From Aminivibrio sp. (GTDB taxonomy: Bacteria; Synergistota; Synergistia; Synergistales; Aminobacteriaceae), in assembly GCF_016756745.1 (NCBI RefSeq), contig NZ_JAESIH010000055.1, positions 62,001-126,000 on the forward strand: a stretch of DNA of 64,000 nucleotides, in the 5' to 3' direction. Below, piece by piece: positions 51,102-59,197 of this stretch (position 1 is the stretch's first letter; every line of letters starts with the position of its first letter). Made by a program: the position numbers and the translations under genes. The notes below the pieces were generated by a model, which saw only the letters and a list, made by a program, of their open reading frames with translations, did not search any database and was not told the DNA's origin.

Positions 51102-51168
51102 CATCTTCGCCCCTCTCCTCCCGTGCATGATATATAATGTAGAGACAAAACTCTCCGGAGGTGTTTTC

Positions 51169-51873
51169 ATGGTGAACAAGAAACAGCCCGATAAAATTCT
51201 CGGTGTGCTCGGCGGCATGGGACCGGCGGCGGCGGCGGAGTTTCTCCGGCTCCTGGCGGAACGGGCACCCGTCTCCCGGGACCAGGAGCACGCCGTGACC
51301 TACCTGCTCTCCGACCCCCAGGTGCCCGACCGGAGCAGTGCCATTCTCGGCACGGGGGAGGACCCCACGGAGCGGCTGAAGAAGAACCTCCTCACCCTCG
51401 CGGGATGGGGAGCCGATTTCCTCGCGGTGCCCTGCAACACGGCCCACTTCTTCATCGACCGCTTCCGGGACGAACTGCCCGTACCCCTCGTCCACATCAT
51501 CGACGAGACCGTGGCCGCGGCGGAGCGGATGAGCCCTAAAGGGGCCTGGCTCCTTGCCACGAGGGGGACCATGGACAGCGGGCTCTACCAGGGATATGCG
51601 GAAAAGAGGAATTACCCCTTCTTTGTCCCCTCCATGGAAGTTCAGCGGAAGGTGCAGAAAAGCATCGAACTGGTAAAGTCGAACAGGAAGACGGAGGGGG
51701 GGGAGCTGCTGAAAGGCGTGGTGCTGGCGCTGTGGGAGGAACGGGATCTTCCCATATGCGCGGCCTGCACGGAGCTTCCCCTGGCCTACGACGCATCGGG
51801 CCTTCCACAGGAGAAGACCGTATCCAGCCTGGGAGCCCTCTGCGAAGCCTGCCTCCGGGTTCTCTACCCCTGA
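51169..51873 (+). CDS. Aspartate/glutamate racemase family protein
   Basis: A 234-aa protein starting with KILGVLGGMGPAAAAEFLRLL, the family opening. The two catalytic cysteines are seen in LAVPCNTAHFF and CAACTELPLAY. The enzyme should racemise aspartate or glutamate without cofactor. CGGAGGTG supplies the ribosome site, and a TATAAT lies at 51133-51138. It is divergent from pstS. Substrate choice between aspartate and glutamate, or a hydantoin-type role, cannot be settled. Confidence 0.9.
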   Translation: MVNKKQPDKILGVLGGMGPAAAAEFLRLLAERAPVSRDQEHAVTYLLSDPQVPDRSSAILGTGEDPTERLKKNLLTLAGWGADFLAVPCNTAHFFIDRFRDELPVPLVHIIDETVAAAERMSPKGAWLLATRGTMDSGLYQGYAEKRNYPFFVPSMEVQRKVQKSIELVKSNRKTEGGELLKGVVLALWEERDLPICAACTELPLAYDASGLPQEKTVSSLGALCEACLRVLYP

Positions 51874-51926: not shown

Positions 51927-53111
51927 CTATTCCCTCACGATGTCAATGATCGTCACTTCGGGAGGGGTGAGGAACCGTATGGGAGGACCCCATGTTCCAG
52001 CGCCGTTGTTCACGTAGATCCGGCTCTGCCTCTTCAGGGGAGCCGCATGGGCCTGCCCGCTCCTCTCCGGGGGGGCGATGGCCCGAAGGCCCGGCCGGTA
52101 ATCGTAGACCGCCCTGGTCACCCAGTAGAACGGCCAGATCTGGCCGCCGTGGGTGTGCCCGGAGAGTTGGAGATCAAACAGTCCCACCGCATCATGGTCG
52201 ATGAGCGGCTGGTGCTTGAGGAGCACCACGAAGCGGTTCGGCGGCATCCCCGCCAGGACGGATGCGTCCTGCGCGGCAGGGCGGCCGTACCGGTTGCCTG
52301 TCTTGTCGTCCACGCCGGCGAGAATGACGCCCCCGGCACGAACAGCCTCGTTCCGCAGAACCCTCAGGCCGGCATGTTCCATGAAGGCCAGGGACTGGTC
52401 GATGCCCGCATAGTATTCGTGATTTCCCGTTACGGCGTAGATGCCGTGGGGCAGCTTCAGGGACCGGAAAAGGGCGACCTCGGGCCGGCGCTCCTCCATT
52501 CCGCCGTCCACAAGATCCCCCGTGACGACGAGCATGTCGGGTTCCGCCTTCCTCACCGCATCGAGCATGGCTGCCAGCCGTTCCTCCTGGATAATCCCCC
52601 CGAGGTGCACGTCGGAGAGCTGGGCGATACGGACACGGTCCGCTCCTCTCGACAGCTTCGATGTGGGGATGGTGATGGTGACCGTCCTGACGTTCAGCGC
52701 CTCGAACCAGCCGTACAGGCAGATGGAAAGAGCGGCGGAGACGGCTACGGCCGCCCGCAGCTTCGGCGAACCGAGCAGGTCACCAAACCTGGTGGAGACG
52801 ATGCTGTCGAGAATATAGAAGAGCAGCCTCGCCAGGTCGATGAGGACAAACCAGGCGAAGGTCATGAACATGAAGGCCATCCACACGTACCCCGAGTAGG
52901 AAAGAACCTTCCGAAGGGTGCGGGCATCCCCGAAGTCGAAGAGCCACAGGGCCCTGGCGCCGACGATCATGGCCAAAGACACCATGATGAAAAGGGCGGT
53001 CCATTTCCAGCCTCTTCCTATGGCGCTTCTCAGCTTGAAGTAAACATAGACGTGCATGCTTCCGTAAACCAGCACGTAGAGCGAAAAAAACACGGCAAAA
53101 CTCCGGCTCAT
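51927..53111 (-). CDS. Membrane-bound metallophosphoesterase
   Basis: A 394-aa protein with about four N-terminal helices (to about residue 140) and a calcineurin-like phosphoesterase domain. Metal motifs are present: LSDVHLGG, VTGDLVDGG, GNHEYY, LKHQP and the C-terminal SGHTHGGQIWPF. The layout resembles YaeI/YkuE-type phosphodiesterases, which act near the membrane on lipid or nucleotide substrates. It stands just downstream of the polysaccharide-type cluster on the same strand, with a 105-bp gap. Confidence 0.9.
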   Translation of the reverse strand: MSRSFAVFFSLYVLVYGSMHVYVYFKLRSAIGRGWKWTALFIMVSLAMIVGARALWLFDFGDARTLRKVLSYSGYVWMAFMFMTFAWFVLIDLARLLFYILDSIVSTRFGDLLGSPKLRAAVAVSAALSICLYGWFEALNVRTVTITIPTSKLSRGADRVRIAQLSDVHLGGIIQEERLAAMLDAVRKAEPDMLVVTGDLVDGGMEERRPEVALFRSLKLPHGIYAVTGNHEYYAGIDQSLAFMEHAGLRVLRNEAVRAGGVILAGVDDKTGNRYGRPAAQDASVLAGMPPNRFVVLLKHQPLIDHDAVGLFDLQLSGHTHGGQIWPFYWVTRAVYDYRPGLRAIAPPERSGQAHAAPLKRQSRIYVNNGAGTWGPPIRFLTPPEVTIIDIVRE

Positions 53112-53216: not shown

Positions 53217-54554
53217 TCAGAATTTCGTTTTCCTGAGCACCCACCAGGGAGCCATGTCGGTGTCAAGATGGCCCCGTCCGGTCATTTCCCAGAGGATCGC
53301 AAAGGCGGACCAGATCCGGGTCACGAAGGTGAAAACGGGCATGAGCGGAAGGAGGGGAATGAGCATGCCGTCTTCCCGCGGGCGCTCGGAGAGGAAAAAG
53401 AGCGTTACGAGGAAGAAAAAGGTCTCCACAGTGAAATAGAAAAGATAAACGAGCCCCATTATGACACCGATGACGGACATGGGAACGGTCGCCAGAAGGA
53501 ATACGGTGTAGAGGAACAGAAGCAGGGGCGTGACGATCTGGAAGAGCAGCCCGCCCACCGTGGAAACGATGAGGTTCGGCCACCCCATGAGCCTCGGGGA
53601 GAAAGACCGGAAATGTTTGAGAAAGTAGAGGTAGAAAAGATCCCCGTCCCACCGGAGCCTTTGCCTGAAGAAACCGCGGAAAGTGTCCGGAGCGTCCGTA
53701 TGCCCCATCACCTCTGGGTCGAAGACGATGCGCAGGTTCCGGTGCCTGCCGAAATAGTTCTTCACCCTGAGGGTGAGATCCAGGTCTTCTGCGGTCCCGG
53801 CATCCCACCCGCCGATGAGGGTAAGAACGTCTCTCCTGAAGATGCCGAAAGCTCCGGAAATGTTGTTGACCGCGTTGAATTCGCTGAGCCCCGTCTTGCT
53901 CGCGAGGATGGACACGAGGTACTCTACGGCCTGAAGTGCGGCCGCCGGTGAATCCCTCCAGTTACGCACCCGGAGGCACCCCGAAACGCACATCACGTCG
54001 GGGTCGCTGAAGTGGCGGACGGCATTTTCCACCATGTCGTTGTCGAAGGAAGTATCGCCGTCCATGGCCATGACCACGTCTCCCGTGGAGAGGGCGAAAC
54101 CGGAGTTAAGGGAGGAAACCCTCCCTCCTCTTTTCCACTTGGGAAGGCATTTCAGCACCCTTCCCGGGAGGGAGGCCACCTCTTTCTCCATCTCATAGGC
54201 GGCGTCGTAGGTGGGCTTGTTGTCCGAAGCGCCGTCCAGGACCGGGATGATCTCTATCTTTCCGGGATAAAGCTGCGCGGCCAGGCTCCTGATAGTCTTC
54301 CGGATATCCTTTCCCTCCGAGTAGCATGTGACGATGCAGGATACGGGCGGAAAGACGTTACACCGCAAAGGCTCCGAATGTCTCTTTCTGATGAGATACC
54401 TGAGAATACCGGAGAAAACAAAGAGATAGTAAGGCAGCTCCAGAGCAAGGATGAAGGGGACGAACCTGAAGACGACCACCCAGAACTCGGAGGCGAGGGG
54501 ATCATCGACAAAGGCCCGCAGACCCCGGAAAAGGAAAAGAAGCCAATCATCCAT
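53217..54554 (-). CDS. Processive family 2 glycosyltransferase (BcsA/PgaC-like)
   Basis: A 445-aa membrane glycosyltransferase. An N-terminal helix pair (about 24-55) precedes a GT-A domain with the UDP-binding DGAS (about 107), the metal-binding DGD at about 165-167, the ED catalytic pair at about 257-258, and Q-R-L-R-W at 298-302, the acceptor motif of processive beta-glycan synthases. Four or five C-terminal helices follow. It is the last gene of a four-gene unit and lies 6 bp after the TackOD1 gene. It probably polymerises and extrudes an exopolysaccharide; the sugar is unknown. No PilZ domain is present. Confidence 0.9.
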   Translation of the reverse strand: MDDWLLFLFRGLRAFVDDPLASEFWVVVFRFVPFILALELPYYLFVFSGILRYLIRKRHSEPLRCNVFPPVSCIVTCYSEGKDIRKTIRSLAAQLYPGKIEIIPVLDGASDNKPTYDAAYEMEKEVASLPGRVLKCLPKWKRGGRVSSLNSGFALSTGDVVMAMDGDTSFDNDMVENAVRHFSDPDVMCVSGCLRVRNWRDSPAAALQAVEYLVSILASKTGLSEFNAVNNISGAFGIFRRDVLTLIGGWDAGTAEDLDLTLRVKNYFGRHRNLRIVFDPEVMGHTDAPDTFRGFFRQRLRWDGDLFYLYFLKHFRSFSPRLMGWPNLIVSTVGGLLFQIVTPLLLFLYTVFLLATVPMSVIGVIMGLVYLFYFTVETFFFLVTLFFLSERPREDGMLIPLLPLMPVFTFVTRIWSAFAILWEMTGRGHLDTDMAPWWVLRKTKF

Positions 54555-54560
54555 GAACGG

Positions 54561-55928
54561 TCAGCCCTTCAGCCGTTCCATAAGAAGCACGGCGTCTTCT
54601 CCCTCCACCCTGTCCCTGGGAAAGACCATCGTTTTCACGGAAATTTCCAGGACGAGGCCGTCGGGCTGCCGGGTCTCCTTTTCAAGCGCCCTCACTTTTG
54701 ACGCCAGAACGGTACAGCCCTTTTCTCCCGTCTTGGGAAGAAGAAGGAGAAGATCGTTTTCCGCCGTCCTTGTGCTGATATCTGTTTTTCTGATGTTCTC
54801 CCGAAGACGCTTCGCCACGCTCTCCATTATCTCCGTCACCTTTTTCCGGCCGACCGTTTCCCTGACCTTTTCGGCGTTGGGGAAGGAAATGACCATAAGG
54901 CTGAAGGGCTCCGCAGGTGGTCTCTCGGAGAGCTGGAGCTGCCAGTCGAGGATATAGCGGAACGGTTCCGGCTTGGTATAGTTCAGGGCATCGAAGACAG
55001 AATACAAATCATCCGTGTTTCCGCTCCTGACGGCAATTATTCCCTTGTCGGAGAGGGAATACTCCCTGAAAGAGCGCACCGACAGCCCATCCACCGGGCT
55101 CCATGTACCGCAGAGGAAACACCTGCACGAGACATCCGGTTCCGCAAAAGTCTGGGAACAGGAGGTGCAGAGGTAATTATCCATGGGCCTGTCATAATCC
55201 GAACCGATATGGCGGAGCCTTGCGCCGCAGAAGGGGCACTGCATGGACCCCTCCCTTACAAAGGCCTCCTGGGGGCCTACCCTTCCGCATGTGAAACAGT
55301 GAACGAATGGAACCCGGCGGATGTCCATGCTTCTGCAGAAGGGACAGACATCCACGTAATTCAGGTGGGCACCGTCGCATTTCGGACACGCCCGGATCCT
55401 GTCGGTAAGGGTCTCTTCTTCCAGGTAACCTTTCTCGAGCAGCTCGGACAGCCACCTGGACGAATCCATCAGCCCGCCCGAGAGATAATCCGCGAGAGGA
55501 TAGGAATAAAGCTCCCTGGAAAATGGGTCGAGAACAGGTCTGAGTTTTTTCCCCTCCCGGGAATAGAGAAAGGCCAGGAGCCTGAGATCGAGGCTTTTTC
55601 GGAGAGCCTGTTCATCCACATCCCGCAGCCTGTTTCCTATCTTGAGGGCAAGCTTTTCCATCTCATCTCTCGTCCTGGCCGGTCCGTCCGCCGCCTCCTG
55701 CTCCCTGTCCGACGAGAAATCCTTCAGAAAAACAGGCAGAAGGGCCGTTTCGTCTCCCTTCCGGAGCTCCCTGAGCATATGGCCGCATTCGCTGCCGGAT
55801 CCGCACCTGCCGAGGATAAAGCCGTCGGGGAGCCCCTCACCCGAGGAGAGGGCTGCGGGAAGGTCCCCGGGACCCGTGAGAAAGAAAAGATTCATTTCTG
55901 AGACATGTTCGCTTCCCTGGTCTTTCAT
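54561..55928 (-). CDS. TackOD1 zinc-domain protein with degenerate GGDEF domain
   Basis: A 455-aa cytoplasmic protein. The first ~110 residues look like a decayed receiver-type domain. Residues 181-273 hold four CxxC pairs, in CPKCDGAHLNYVDVCPFC, HCFTCGRVGPQ, CPFCGARLRHIGSDYDRP and later CTSC and CRCFLC, matching the TackOD1 output domain. Residues about 315-455 resemble a GGDEF domain, but the signature position reads AENDL (389-393), so it should not make cyclic di-GMP. GGAGGG supplies the ribosome site. It lies between the HlyD-like and glycosyltransferase genes and probably regulates the synthase. Confidence 0.82.
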   Translation of the reverse strand: MKDQGSEHVSEMNLFFLTGPGDLPAALSSGEGLPDGFILGRCGSGSECGHMLRELRKGDETALLPVFLKDFSSDREQEAADGPARTRDEMEKLALKIGNRLRDVDEQALRKSLDLRLLAFLYSREGKKLRPVLDPFSRELYSYPLADYLSGGLMDSSRWLSELLEKGYLEEETLTDRIRACPKCDGAHLNYVDVCPFCRSMDIRRVPFVHCFTCGRVGPQEAFVREGSMQCPFCGARLRHIGSDYDRPMDNYLCTSCSQTFAEPDVSCRCFLCGTWSPVDGLSVRSFREYSLSDKGIIAVRSGNTDDLYSVFDALNYTKPEPFRYILDWQLQLSERPPAEPFSLMVISFPNAEKVRETVGRKKVTEIMESVAKRLRENIRKTDISTRTAENDLLLLLPKTGEKGCTVLASKVRALEKETRQPDGLVLEISVKTMVFPRDRVEGEDAVLLMERLKG

Positions 55929-55941
55929 GCTTTCCCTCCTG

Positions 55942-57039
55942 TCATGGTTCCCCGGAGAGAAGCTGCAGGCTTTTCCGGAGAGAAAAACCGAAATGGACGG
56001 ACACCGGCAGTCCCTCGACGCGAAGGTGACCGGCAAGGGGTTCATCGAGATCGATCCTGACGAGCAGTGCCTGCTTTCCCTCCGCCAGTACGCCGGCAAG
56101 TTCCGCCGGAATGCGGGCGGCGATTTCCGGCGCCGCAGAAACCTTGCCGGAAACCGAAAGGCTTCCCGGCAGGCGCACGATAACCTTCTCGCCCTCCTTC
56201 GCATAGGAAATGTGCCTTGGCTGCAGGTAGGCCATCACCTTCATGGACTGGGGTCGCCCCAGGAGAACCAGGGGGGCTCCCCCGGCGACGGATTGTCCCT
56301 CGGTGGGAAAAACGTCCAGCACCCGTCCTTCGCCGGGGCTGACCACGGAGAAAAATCCCTTCCGTTCTTCCAGCCCTTTCAATTCCGCCTCAATCTGGGC
56401 GATCCTTGTATTTCTCTGGGCCGCTGACTCCAGCCTGGACAGATCCGGCACCTGGAGAAGGGCCCTTGCAGCCCTGGCCTCAGCCAGGGCTGCAAGGGCC
56501 TGCCTGTACCTGTCCTCGGCGGCGTCGGCTTCAGCCCTTGTGGCGGCTCCCTGCCTGAAGAGATACTGTACCGAATCCCTGTATCCTTTCTGGTACCTTA
56601 CGCTCTCCTCCGCTATGCGGACTCCGGCAAATACGGCCCTGGGAGGGAAGTTCCCCGCCGCACCGGGCACTCCGACCTTCAGTGCCTCCAGTTCCGCCTG
56701 CAGGACGTAGATCCTCTGGGTCACCACAGGGTCTTCCAGGCGTATGAGCAGGTCGCCGAGAGCCGTCCTGGCGCCGGGGGACACGTAAATTTTCTCCACC
56801 ACCGCGGGGAAGGGGCTGTTGATGCTGACCTTCTCCAGGGAAATGACTCCCGGGGCATTTATTAAAAACATGGCGGCCCCGACCCGCCAGAGAAGGAAGA
56901 GAAGGGGGGACGAAATGACCAGGACGAGGATGTACCACCTCCATTTCGGTACCGCCCGCTTCGCAGGACCATACCTGACGAGAAGACCTCCATCTTCATC
57001 GGGATTCTGCTTTTTCGGTGAATCAAACCTGACTTTCAT
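55942..57039 (-). CDS. HlyD-type membrane fusion protein
   Basis: A 365-aa inner-membrane adaptor with a cytoplasmic N-terminus, one helix (about 35-60), a split lipoyl/barrel-sandwich domain (ISLEKVSINSPFPAVVEKIYVSPGA and FSVVSPGEGRVLDVFPTEGQSV), a long coiled-coil hairpin between them, and a C-terminal beta-barrel. It resembles the Alg44/HlyD adaptors of polysaccharide exporters but has no PilZ domain. Its ATG overlaps the stop of the TolC-like gene (ATGA), and AAGGAGA precedes it. It should bridge the synthase to the outer-membrane tube. Confidence 0.85.
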   Translation of the reverse strand: MKVRFDSPKKQNPDEDGGLLVRYGPAKRAVPKWRWYILVLVISSPLLFLLWRVGAAMFLINAPGVISLEKVSINSPFPAVVEKIYVSPGARTALGDLLIRLEDPVVTQRIYVLQAELEALKVGVPGAAGNFPPRAVFAGVRIAEESVRYQKGYRDSVQYLFRQGAATRAEADAAEDRYRQALAALAEARAARALLQVPDLSRLESAAQRNTRIAQIEAELKGLEERKGFFSVVSPGEGRVLDVFPTEGQSVAGGAPLVLLGRPQSMKVMAYLQPRHISYAKEGEKVIVRLPGSLSVSGKVSAAPEIAARIPAELAGVLAEGKQALLVRIDLDEPLAGHLRVEGLPVSVHFGFSLRKSLQLLSGEP

Positions 57040-59197
57040 CGGGCCATCTCCTTGTAGTTTTCCCATGACTGCACTACCGTACCGGCAAAGGAGGAAGAAG
57101 CCAGCTCCCCCTGAAGAAAATCGACAGCCTCAAGGAAACTCTTCTTTCCTCCCTTGAAAAAACTTTCCGAGGGGGGCAGCTCCCTTTCCACGGAAAGGGC
57201 GAGCCGGAAACGCAGCCCCGGCCAGGAGGAGAGAATGGCTTTCATCCTCGAGGCAACGGAGTCAACCTTCGTGGAATAGATCATAACGGCAATTTCATCC
57301 ACTCCAGCGGCTCCGAAGCCCTTTGCAGCAACGGGGCCGAGACTTCCCTCAAGATAGCGGGGATGGACGGAAAGAGAAACGGGCAGCCTGGCGGCTCTCT
57401 TCACCTCGCGGACGGTCTCCGTGAGGGACAGAAGCAGTTCCATGCGGCGTGCTTCGGCGTCCGGCAGCTGATCCGGCTCAAGGTCAAGGTGGATTCCCGA
57501 AAAGGCAAATCCGCCCAGTTCCCTTACGAGATCCGTAAGTTCCTTTCTGTGGGCGGCAAGGATCCACGAAGGATCCCCAAGAAGAAGCTCTGCCCTGACG
57601 CCGGCCCTGCGTGCAGCTTCTAGGGCCTCATCCAGGCGGGCCTTCCCCCCTGCGGTTCTCAGGAAGGCGATGCCCCGGGGTGAAAAGGAGACAAGTATCC
57701 CCGAGACACCCTCTTTGGCTGCCTGTTCGAAAAAGGCCCTCCCCTTTCCCGGATACAGCAGATCGTCTCCCTTCCAGAAATAAAACATCTGTCCCTTAGG
57801 GGAAAGGACCGGCTTGCCGACGGCAGGTGCTGAGGGAGACTCCGATGGAAAGGCAAGCCACGAAGGGGCCAGGAGACGATGCCGTTCGGGCTCTTCAGGG
57901 AAAAAGGAGGCGATTTCCTTTCCCTCTCCGCGGTCCCCGGTCTCAGGCAGCATTCCAAGGAGTTCGCAGTGGGCTTGGAGTAGTGCCCCTTCACTGTCGA
58001 CAAAATCCAGGGCAGACGAAAAGTAGATGAACAGGCTCCTGAAGAGCTGCTCCAGCACATCTCCGGGGAGAAGGCTATACCGGAGCCTGTCCGCCCGTAC
58101 AGCCTCCGCCGCCGACCGGGCATTGGCCATGGCAAAGGCTCGCTGGGCCGCGGCGGAGTCGAAGCGGAGAATTCCCCCCCGAATGTCCCCTACGATAGCA
58201 AGGCGCCGCGCCTCCATTTCGTGCCCGGCCTTCTCTGCACCTGCCCTGGCGGCCCGTCCCGCTGCGGAAGCAGTCCGGCCTTCCCTGAAAGGCACATCGA
58301 AAGCTATGGAAAGAAATGCCTCCGTGCCGTTCCTCCCCGGAAACTCGGAGGAAAAACCGTAGCCCGCCCTGAGGTAGGCGTCGTACTGGGCCTTGGGAAC
58401 CCGGCGCGCTATCTCCCGTTTCGTCTCAGCGGCCTCGGTGAGAATCTGCAGTTCCCTGTTTTCCTCCCCGGCGGCGCGGGCAAGGACATCTTCGGAAAAG
58501 AAACGGGGTTCAAGGTGCGGGAAGAGGACCTCCAGATCGGAAAGACCACCCCGGCCGGTCGCCTTCCGTATAAGGGCAAGACACTCCTCTTTCAGGGAGG
58601 CATCCGCTGCAGCTTCTCTGCGGGCAAAGGCAAACCAGCTCTCCATCTCGAGGCGGTCCCGTTCGAGAAGAAACCCCTCCTCCGCCCTCTTCGCGAGGAG
58701 CGGCATTATCCGCTCCTCAAGGGCAAGAAAGCGCTCGAGGAGCGACTTCCTCTCCTGTATCGTCCACAGCAGAGCATAGGCCTTCCTGAGGGCTGTGAGA
58801 TTCGCTTTCCGTACCGCGAGGAGACGAAGCTCCTCCTCGAGGGACAGAATCCGGCTTTCCAGTTCCCTTATCCGTTCTTTTCGCCAGGTACCGAAGAGAG
58901 GAATGGAGACGCCGCCTCTGACCCACAGCTTCGAATAGCCTTCCAGGACCGAGGTATCGCTCCTGGAAGCGGGCTCATTGAGACCGCTTAGGGAGAGTTC
59001 GCCGAAAAACCTGGACCCACCGGTCATCTTCTGGCGCTCTTCGATGGCCCTGCTCTCCGATAGTGATGCCGCTGCCGCCAGTACCTCGGGAGAGGCGGTC
59101 AGTTCACTTTCGAGGTCACGAAGAGCAATCCGAGGTTCAGCAAAGCTGTATTCCCGGAGAAAAAAAGCACAAACAAGGCAAGCAGTATTCGTTTCAT
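57036..59197 (-). CDS. TolC-like outer-membrane protein fused to a TIM-barrel glycosidase-like domain, with frameshift in the signal peptide
   Basis: The well-placed start (GGGAG, 7-nt spacing, ATG at 59197) opens MKRILLALFVLFF, a signal peptide, but that frame stops after 32 codons. The main frame, shifted by -1, takes over at the T7 tract (59166-59160) and reads LREYSFAEPRIALRDLESEL to the end. Joined, the product is about 720 aa. Residues up to about 440 form TolC-like long helices (many AAETKREIARR-type coils, one GVSIPLFGT strand segment). From about 470 a TIM-barrel-like domain follows with GIHLDLEPDQLP (about 568-579), whose acidic residues look catalytic. It leads the unit, with a possible AGGACA / TATGAT promoter near 59255-59290. 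Confidence 0.75.

Follow-up and report, generated by a model that had tools for sequence, protein, structure and literature searches.

A conserved four-gene cassette in Synergistota joins a TackOD1 regulator, a GT2 synthase, an HlyD-type adaptor and a TolC-hydrolase-like fusion: a candidate polysaccharide exporter

Results

Four abutting genes at the locus

We analyzed a 64,000-nt stretch of DNA from Aminivibrio sp. (NCBI RefSeq assembly GCF_016756745.1, contig NZ_JAESIH010000055.1, positions 62,001 to 126,000), hereafter the window, to which coordinates refer unless another locus is named. On its minus strand (59197–53217), four abutting genes encode, in this order, a TolC-like protein fused to a glycoside hydrolase (GH)-like domain (TolC-GH), an HlyD-type adaptor, a regulator that combines TackOD1 with a degenerate GGDEF domain (TackOD1-GGDEF), and a family 2 glycosyltransferase (GT2). 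A preliminary description, made from the letters alone, had proposed these adjacent genes and domains as a polysaccharide synthesis-export system; Pfam (OEP 7.1e-10; HlyD_3 5.6e-8; TackOD1 6.8e-66; GGDEF 6.5e-9; Glyco_tranf_2_3 7.2e-22) and NCBIfam find all four genes and agree with its domain calls.

57036–59197, minus: TolC-like outer-membrane protein, GH18-like at its C-terminus; the start conserved in homologues is the ATG at 59197
57795–59197, minus: signal peptide and TolC/OEP part
57039–57794, minus: GH-like (beta/alpha)8 domain; invariant H102, D104, E106 and D108 (domain numbering)
55942–57039, minus: HlyD-type periplasmic adaptor; single N-terminal membrane segment, judged by eye
54561–55928, minus: regulator; N-terminal ~107 residues without an assigned domain, then TackOD1, then degenerate GGDEF
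55053–55607, minus: TackOD1 domain; 11 Cys columns kept in all 36 aligned homologues
54663–54941, minus: degenerate GGDEF domain; AENDL where GGDEF is expected
54780–54791, minus: RKTD, the putative equivalent of the RxxD cyclic di-GMP (c-di-GMP) I-site; kept in 28/28
53217–54554, minus: GT2 membrane synthase; DG, DxD, ED and QxxRW invariant in 19 homologues

The HlyD start (57039) overlaps the TolC-GH stop codon (gene end 57036). TackOD1-GGDEF starts at 55928, 13 bases past the HlyD end and downstream of AGGAGG; the mechanical open reading frame (ORF) start, 56204, is wrong for this gene, as both the window sequence and two relatives (L018 and L019) favor 55928. GT2 starts 6 bases past the end of TackOD1-GGDEF.

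The cassette is conserved as a unit in Synergistota

Of 185 Synergistota genomes, 32 contain TackOD1 (PF18551) above its cut-off, and 14 control genomes gave no such match; the GH-domain profile also matches 32 of the 185. The two coincide in 31 genomes, TackOD1 occurs alone in one, GH alone in one, and neither is present in 152 (Fisher p 6e-33, a value that treats genomes as independent and ignores shared ancestry). The TackOD1-only genome (G120) is 66% complete, and the GH-only genome (G039) carries a decayed cassette scar. TackOD1 and GH lie on one contig, 1.4–2.9 kb apart, in 31/31 shared genomes. Gene order is identical in all 27 genomes opened, the window included; among them are loci cut by contig ends (L019, L061) or with a split TackOD1 gene (L049, L055) and one genome (G056) in which an assembly gap interrupts the TolC-GH frame. 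The four proteins diverge in step, with pairwise identities that correlate at r 0.85–0.93 across 22 loci. The cassette is a conserved genetic unit; a chance neighborhood is ruled out by the co-occurrence of TackOD1 and GH and by their one-contig linkage in Synergistota. The four families proposed to act together do co-occur in other genomes, namely in 31 from Synergistota and on proteobacterial plasmids. A contig scan with a single window protein recovered only three close Synergistaceae relatives (L017–L019).

Within genera the cassette is patchy, being present in G002 and G003 and absent from G001 and G004, which argues that it is gained or lost as a block. Its flanking genes include no family widely common to the 24 compared loci. 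The preliminary description had named a drug pump as the partner of the TolC-like protein that would speak against its proposal; in these 24 loci the unit contains no pump gene, and the one inner-membrane, transporter-like partner present throughout is GT2.

The scar in G039 (L103 7639–7964) consists of short TolC, GH, and HlyD fragments ~90% identical to the congener G056, the remainder being gone. In G139 (L049 5674–8246) the TackOD1 gene is apparently split by ~1.2 kb of extra sequence, and in G175 (L055 6473–7876) it falls into two neighboring ORFs. Directly downstream of GT2 in the window lies a metallophosphoesterase gene (51927–53111), found among the opened loci in the same genus only. 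A convergent gene at 51127–51873 resembles the cysteate racemase CuyB (180.6 bits against a cut-off of 190).

A core trio recurs on proteobacterial plasmids

Outside Synergistota, plasmid records were searched. GT2 relatives at 43–53% identity are present in Aeromonas, Photobacterium, Plesiomonas, and Alisedimentitalea, with more distant ones in Hyphomicrobiales and Rhodobacterales. TackOD1 matches 15 bacterial plasmids and one archaeal plasmid. All 11 bacterial plasmid loci opened (Alpha- and Gammaproteobacteria) contain the trio TackOD1, GT2, and HlyD, in that order; the exception is Aeromonas, where TolC-GH stands between GT2 and HlyD. The Aeromonas TolC protein ends in the GH domain (172 bits). 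In Methylocystis the run reads TackOD1, GT2, HlyD-type gene, free-standing GH relative, TolC gene; the free GH relative (25 bits, E 3e-7) contains the motif FDGLHFDVEP and, by eye, a signal sequence. The occurrence of a TolC-GH fusion in two phyla, together with a split version beside the same trio, is the most telling indication that the channel and the hydrolase work for the synthase. The absence of a separate hydrolase, noted in the preliminary description, thus holds for the fused version but not for Methylocystis, in which GH and TolC are separate genes of the same run. No GT2 lies near TackOD1 in the one archaeal plasmid locus seen, and viral contigs yielded no relative of the GH domain.

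A 29 kb mobilizable plasmid of Aeromonas caviae (two records; L062 8605–14427) carries the whole four-gene module. The Alisedimentitalea locus (L063 8668–13322) encodes a TackOD1 protein without the GGDEF part, and the same gene run holds a separate 113-residue ORF and galE. A genuine receiver domain is part of the TackOD1 proteins of Palleronia and Roseibium.

GT2 carries the motifs of processive synthases

The aspartate, DxD, ED, and QxxRW motifs of GT2 are invariant in an alignment of 19 homologues; the Q-x-x-R-W motif named in the preliminary description is present as QRLRW. The protein is 445 residues long. Its best solved relatives by profile include hyaluronan and cellulose synthases, and its best NCBIfam model is the poly-N-acetylglucosamine (PNAG) synthase PgaC, with NodC also among the best. 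GT2 falls short of the cut-offs for both PNAG synthase (TIGR03937, 129.2 bits vs 422.3) and cellulose synthase (TIGR03030, 18.2 bits vs 699.1). No PilZ match was found on GT2 or on the HlyD-type adaptor, and the single PilZ match in this genome sits on another contig. In a phylogenetic tree the TackOD1-linked GT2 enzymes stand apart from PgaC, BcsA, and BgsA, with long branches that leave the deep part unsure. The best solved relatives of the adaptor are ZneB, EmrA, and MacA.

The TolC-fused domain is predicted to be a GH18-like barrel

The GH domain has no convincing Pfam match, and no GH18 Pfam match was obtained for any of 12 members. The glycosidase-like character assigned to it beforehand is borne out by an AlphaFold2 model (predicted local distance difference test, pLDDT, 84), in which eight alternating strands and helices form a predicted eight-stranded barrel. 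The closest folds are GH18 enzymes and their relatives, including Cwp19 and the C-terminal hydrolase domain of PgaB (Z 17.8–15.7), with a GH18 chitinase as the best match (Z 17.8, root-mean-square deviation 3.9, 231 residues); many other barrel families follow closely. The sequence at the end of strand 4, SGIHLDLEPD, retains the third D and the E (D104, E106) of the GH18 motif DxxDxDxE and has other residues in place of the first two D. Both termini of TolC are periplasmic, which would place the barrel in the periplasm. A weak collinear profile match (E 0.02, LDVEP in common) connects the domain to PDB entry 10yv from Cellulomonas fimi, titled a putative GH97, and may help to place the family.

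The regulator has lost GGDEF and kept RxxD

TackOD1 scores 221.8 bits against a curated cut-off of 32. Eleven of its 12 Cys columns, arranged in CxxC motifs, are kept in 36/36 homologues and the remaining one in 30/36. None of 28 regulators keeps the GGDEF motif, all five catalytic letters of which drift; the RxxD motif and a third basic residue are each kept in 28/28 (Synergistota and Gammaproteobacteria). The first ~100 residues of the regulator give the impression of a receiver-like domain. With 17 GGDEF matches in this genome, a supply of c-di-GMP is likely. PAS-GGDEF-HD type proteins flank the cassette at L023 346–2859, L054 2199–4526, and L055 10245–12572, and plausibly act as a local source and sink of c-di-GMP.

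An apparent frameshift in the TolC-GH signal peptide

The TolC-GH start at 59197 was placed correctly with respect to homologues, but in this assembly the remainder of the gene is read in a different frame, because a T run in the signal peptide (59160–59166, minus) has seven bases instead of the eight in the closest relative (L017, near 7990). The mechanical open frame, from 59333, does not include the homologous start. The T7 tract may be an assembly error or reflect slippage. Slippage-driven switching of TolC-GH is possible, since other relatives also carry homopolymer runs there: G8 right after the start codon in L025 and L056, and A7 in L018.

Discussion

A synthase, an adaptor, an outer-membrane channel, and a periplasmic hydrolase make up the usual exporter set. 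We consider that the cassette is probably a synthase-dependent polysaccharide exporter with an HlyD-TolC conduit, gated through c-di-GMP by TackOD1-GGDEF. The opened Synergistota loci contain two features of such exporters, a motif-bearing membrane GT2 and HlyD plus OEP genes in the same operon. The synthesis-export role put forward in the preliminary description is supported by the joint recurrence of the families in other genomes, by the fit of the part set, and by the lack of a pump partner. The parts, their tight linkage and constant order, their parallel divergence, the motif patterns, and the predicted barrel fold are observations; polymerization, export through TolC, trimming, and c-di-GMP control are inferred from them.

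In the proposed mechanism, GT2 would polymerize a sugar nucleotide and thread the chain across the inner membrane. The HlyD-type adaptor would bridge the periplasm to a TolC-type trimer, the presumed outer-membrane exit, with the chain passing inside the HlyD collar. The GH18-like barrel at the periplasmic C-terminus of TolC could trim the chain, or release it, where it enters the exit duct. In the cytoplasm, TackOD1-GGDEF would bind c-di-GMP at RxxD and switch GT2 on, in a manner comparable to PelD and BcsE; in some Alphaproteobacteria, a receiver domain would feed TackOD1 in place of the degenerate GGDEF. The GH18-like motif, together with the leaning of GT2 toward PgaC, leads us to guess at an N-acetylhexosamine polymer.

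Several observations weigh against this reading. No TolC or GH gene adjoins the trio in Photobacterium (two loci), Plesiomonas, Alisedimentitalea, or most alphaproteobacterial loci. The alphaproteobacterial regions aligned to GGDEF are without RxxD, and retention of RxxD would not by itself prove c-di-GMP binding, because these residues are common in active cyclases too. The AlphaFold2 model of the N-terminal and TackOD1 parts has a pLDDT of 39, too low to support a contact of TackOD1 with GT2. In the window genome itself, TolC-GH may be silenced by the T7 frameshift. A literature search returned no experiment on any cassette member.

Alternatively, the cassette could serve a glycolipid or a short oligosaccharide: GT2 would attach a single sugar, or a few, to a lipid or else make a NodC-like oligomer, the adaptor and TolC would export the product, and the GH domain would bind or edit it. 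The shortness of GT2 and the presence of NodC among its best NCBIfam models fit this scheme, as does the general knowledge that GH18-like domains act on short chitooligosaccharides too. However, the invariant QxxRW is a mark of processive GT2 synthases, PgaC is the best NCBIfam model (129 bits), the PDB relatives include hyaluronan and cellulose synthases, and a hydrolase next to the exit makes sense for a long chain; we regard a short product as unlikely.

The machine could also work as we describe while its regulator is blind to c-di-GMP, the GGDEF remnant being a scaffold and the zinc ribbons answering redox, metal, or a receiver domain. The invariance of 11 Cys columns, the receiver domains of Palleronia and Roseibium, and the alphaproteobacterial GGDEF remnants, which are absent or lack RxxD, all favor such a regulator. 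Yet RxxD and the third basic residue persist in every one of the 28 regulators while the five catalytic letters drift, and PAS-GGDEF-HD proteins flank some cassettes, so that c-di-GMP blindness appears quite improbable.

Very improbable, finally, is that HlyD and TolC serve drug efflux or type I protein secretion, with GT2 and TackOD1 sharing the operon for a separate glycosylation task: the two families mostly serve pumps, the profile relatives of HlyD are ZneB, EmrA, and MacA, and the genome has several other OEP genes, but no ABC, MFS, or RND gene recurs beside the cassette (24 loci and the annotated plasmid neighborhoods), no pump family is common to the flanks, GH is fused to TolC in two phyla, and HlyD stays with GT2 and TackOD1 even without TolC, which points to GT2 rather than a pump as the steady partner of HlyD.

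Beyond the synthase-dependent exporter itself, we suggest tentatively that the TackOD1-GT2-HlyD core might represent a distinct secretion class in which TackOD1 gates the synthase by c-di-GMP or a phosphorelay and the TolC-hydrolase is a self-trimming exit channel. If so, the cassette would exemplify HlyD-TolC export of a polysaccharide encoded in a single operon. The literature searched, a coverage that leaves out most subscription papers, names TackOD1 in one paper and describes no system that unites control by TackOD1 with a GT2-HlyD pair and a fusion of TolC to a hydrolase.

The cassette gives TackOD1, a Cys-rich output domain whose role in archaeal receiver (REC)-TackOD1 response regulators has been called obscure (PMC5847659), a concrete bacterial context, in that it is genetically tied to a membrane synthase for sugar polymers. 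The TolC-hydrolase fusion and its unfused Methylocystis version tie a hydrolase to the exit channel. As a compact operon, the cassette lends itself to the open question whether polysaccharides exit via an HlyD-TolC conduit (PMC12430437). Were the exporter reading true, matrix production would become predictable in many genomes that currently label these genes 'diguanylate cyclase', 'glycosyltransferase', 'TolC family protein', or 'HlyD'.

Comparison with known systems

The logic of the cassette is that of known synthase-dependent exporters, and its nearest precedents are XcsAB-TolC, BgsBA, PelD, and BcsE. Xcs, Bgs, Pel, Bcs, and Pga share this logic, but judged by the diagnostic features tested the cassette belongs to none of them. 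It misses one or more of the features tested for each of the cellulose, PNAG, Pel, alginate, and Bgs systems.

PgaABCD resembles the cassette in that PgaC is the best NCBIfam model of GT2 and the C-terminal barrel of PgaB is among the best fold matches of GH. In contrast, the cassette hydrolase is fused to TolC, no counterpart of PgaA or PgaD was seen, and the PgaC cut-off is missed. In the alginate system (Alg8/Alg44), PilZ is fused to the adaptor, whereas the cassette adaptor has no PilZ match. Pel is polymerized by PelF, which does not belong to GT2, and the cassette transferase is a GT2 and not PelF-type.

The closest models for the regulator are PelD, a cytoplasmic c-di-GMP receptor whose degenerate GGDEF domain binds the ligand via an intact RxxD (PMC7112168), and E. 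coli BcsE, a cytosolic synthase regulator that does the same (PMC7439463). No TackOD1 has been described in PelD, however, and BcsE is a degenerate receiver-GGDEF tandem without TackOD1 whose synthase has PilZ. The archaeal REC-TackOD1 proteins share the TackOD1 domain and offer receiver-fed versions of it (PMC5847659).

The rhizobial mixed-linkage glucan system BgsA/BgsB likewise pairs a GT2 with an HlyD-type adaptor in a two-gene, c-di-GMP-activated operon (PMC9495663). Unlike the cassette enzyme, BgsA senses c-di-GMP through its own C-terminal domain, is 664 residues long vs 445 (25% identity over 314 residues), and groups with BcsA at 100/100, on long branches, not with the cassette GT2; the R. 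etli pair has no adjoining TackOD1.

The XcsA-XcsB-TolC system of cyanobacterial cellulose, a proposed tripartite secretion model that lacks experimental validation, likewise unites a GT2 synthase, an HlyD-type adaptor, TolC, and an endoglucanase in one pathway; XcsA has PilZ, and the Thermosynechococcus genes are scattered (PMC12430437). The cassette, by contrast, lies in one operon, has its hydrolase-like domain fused to TolC, and is putatively controlled by TackOD1-GGDEF.

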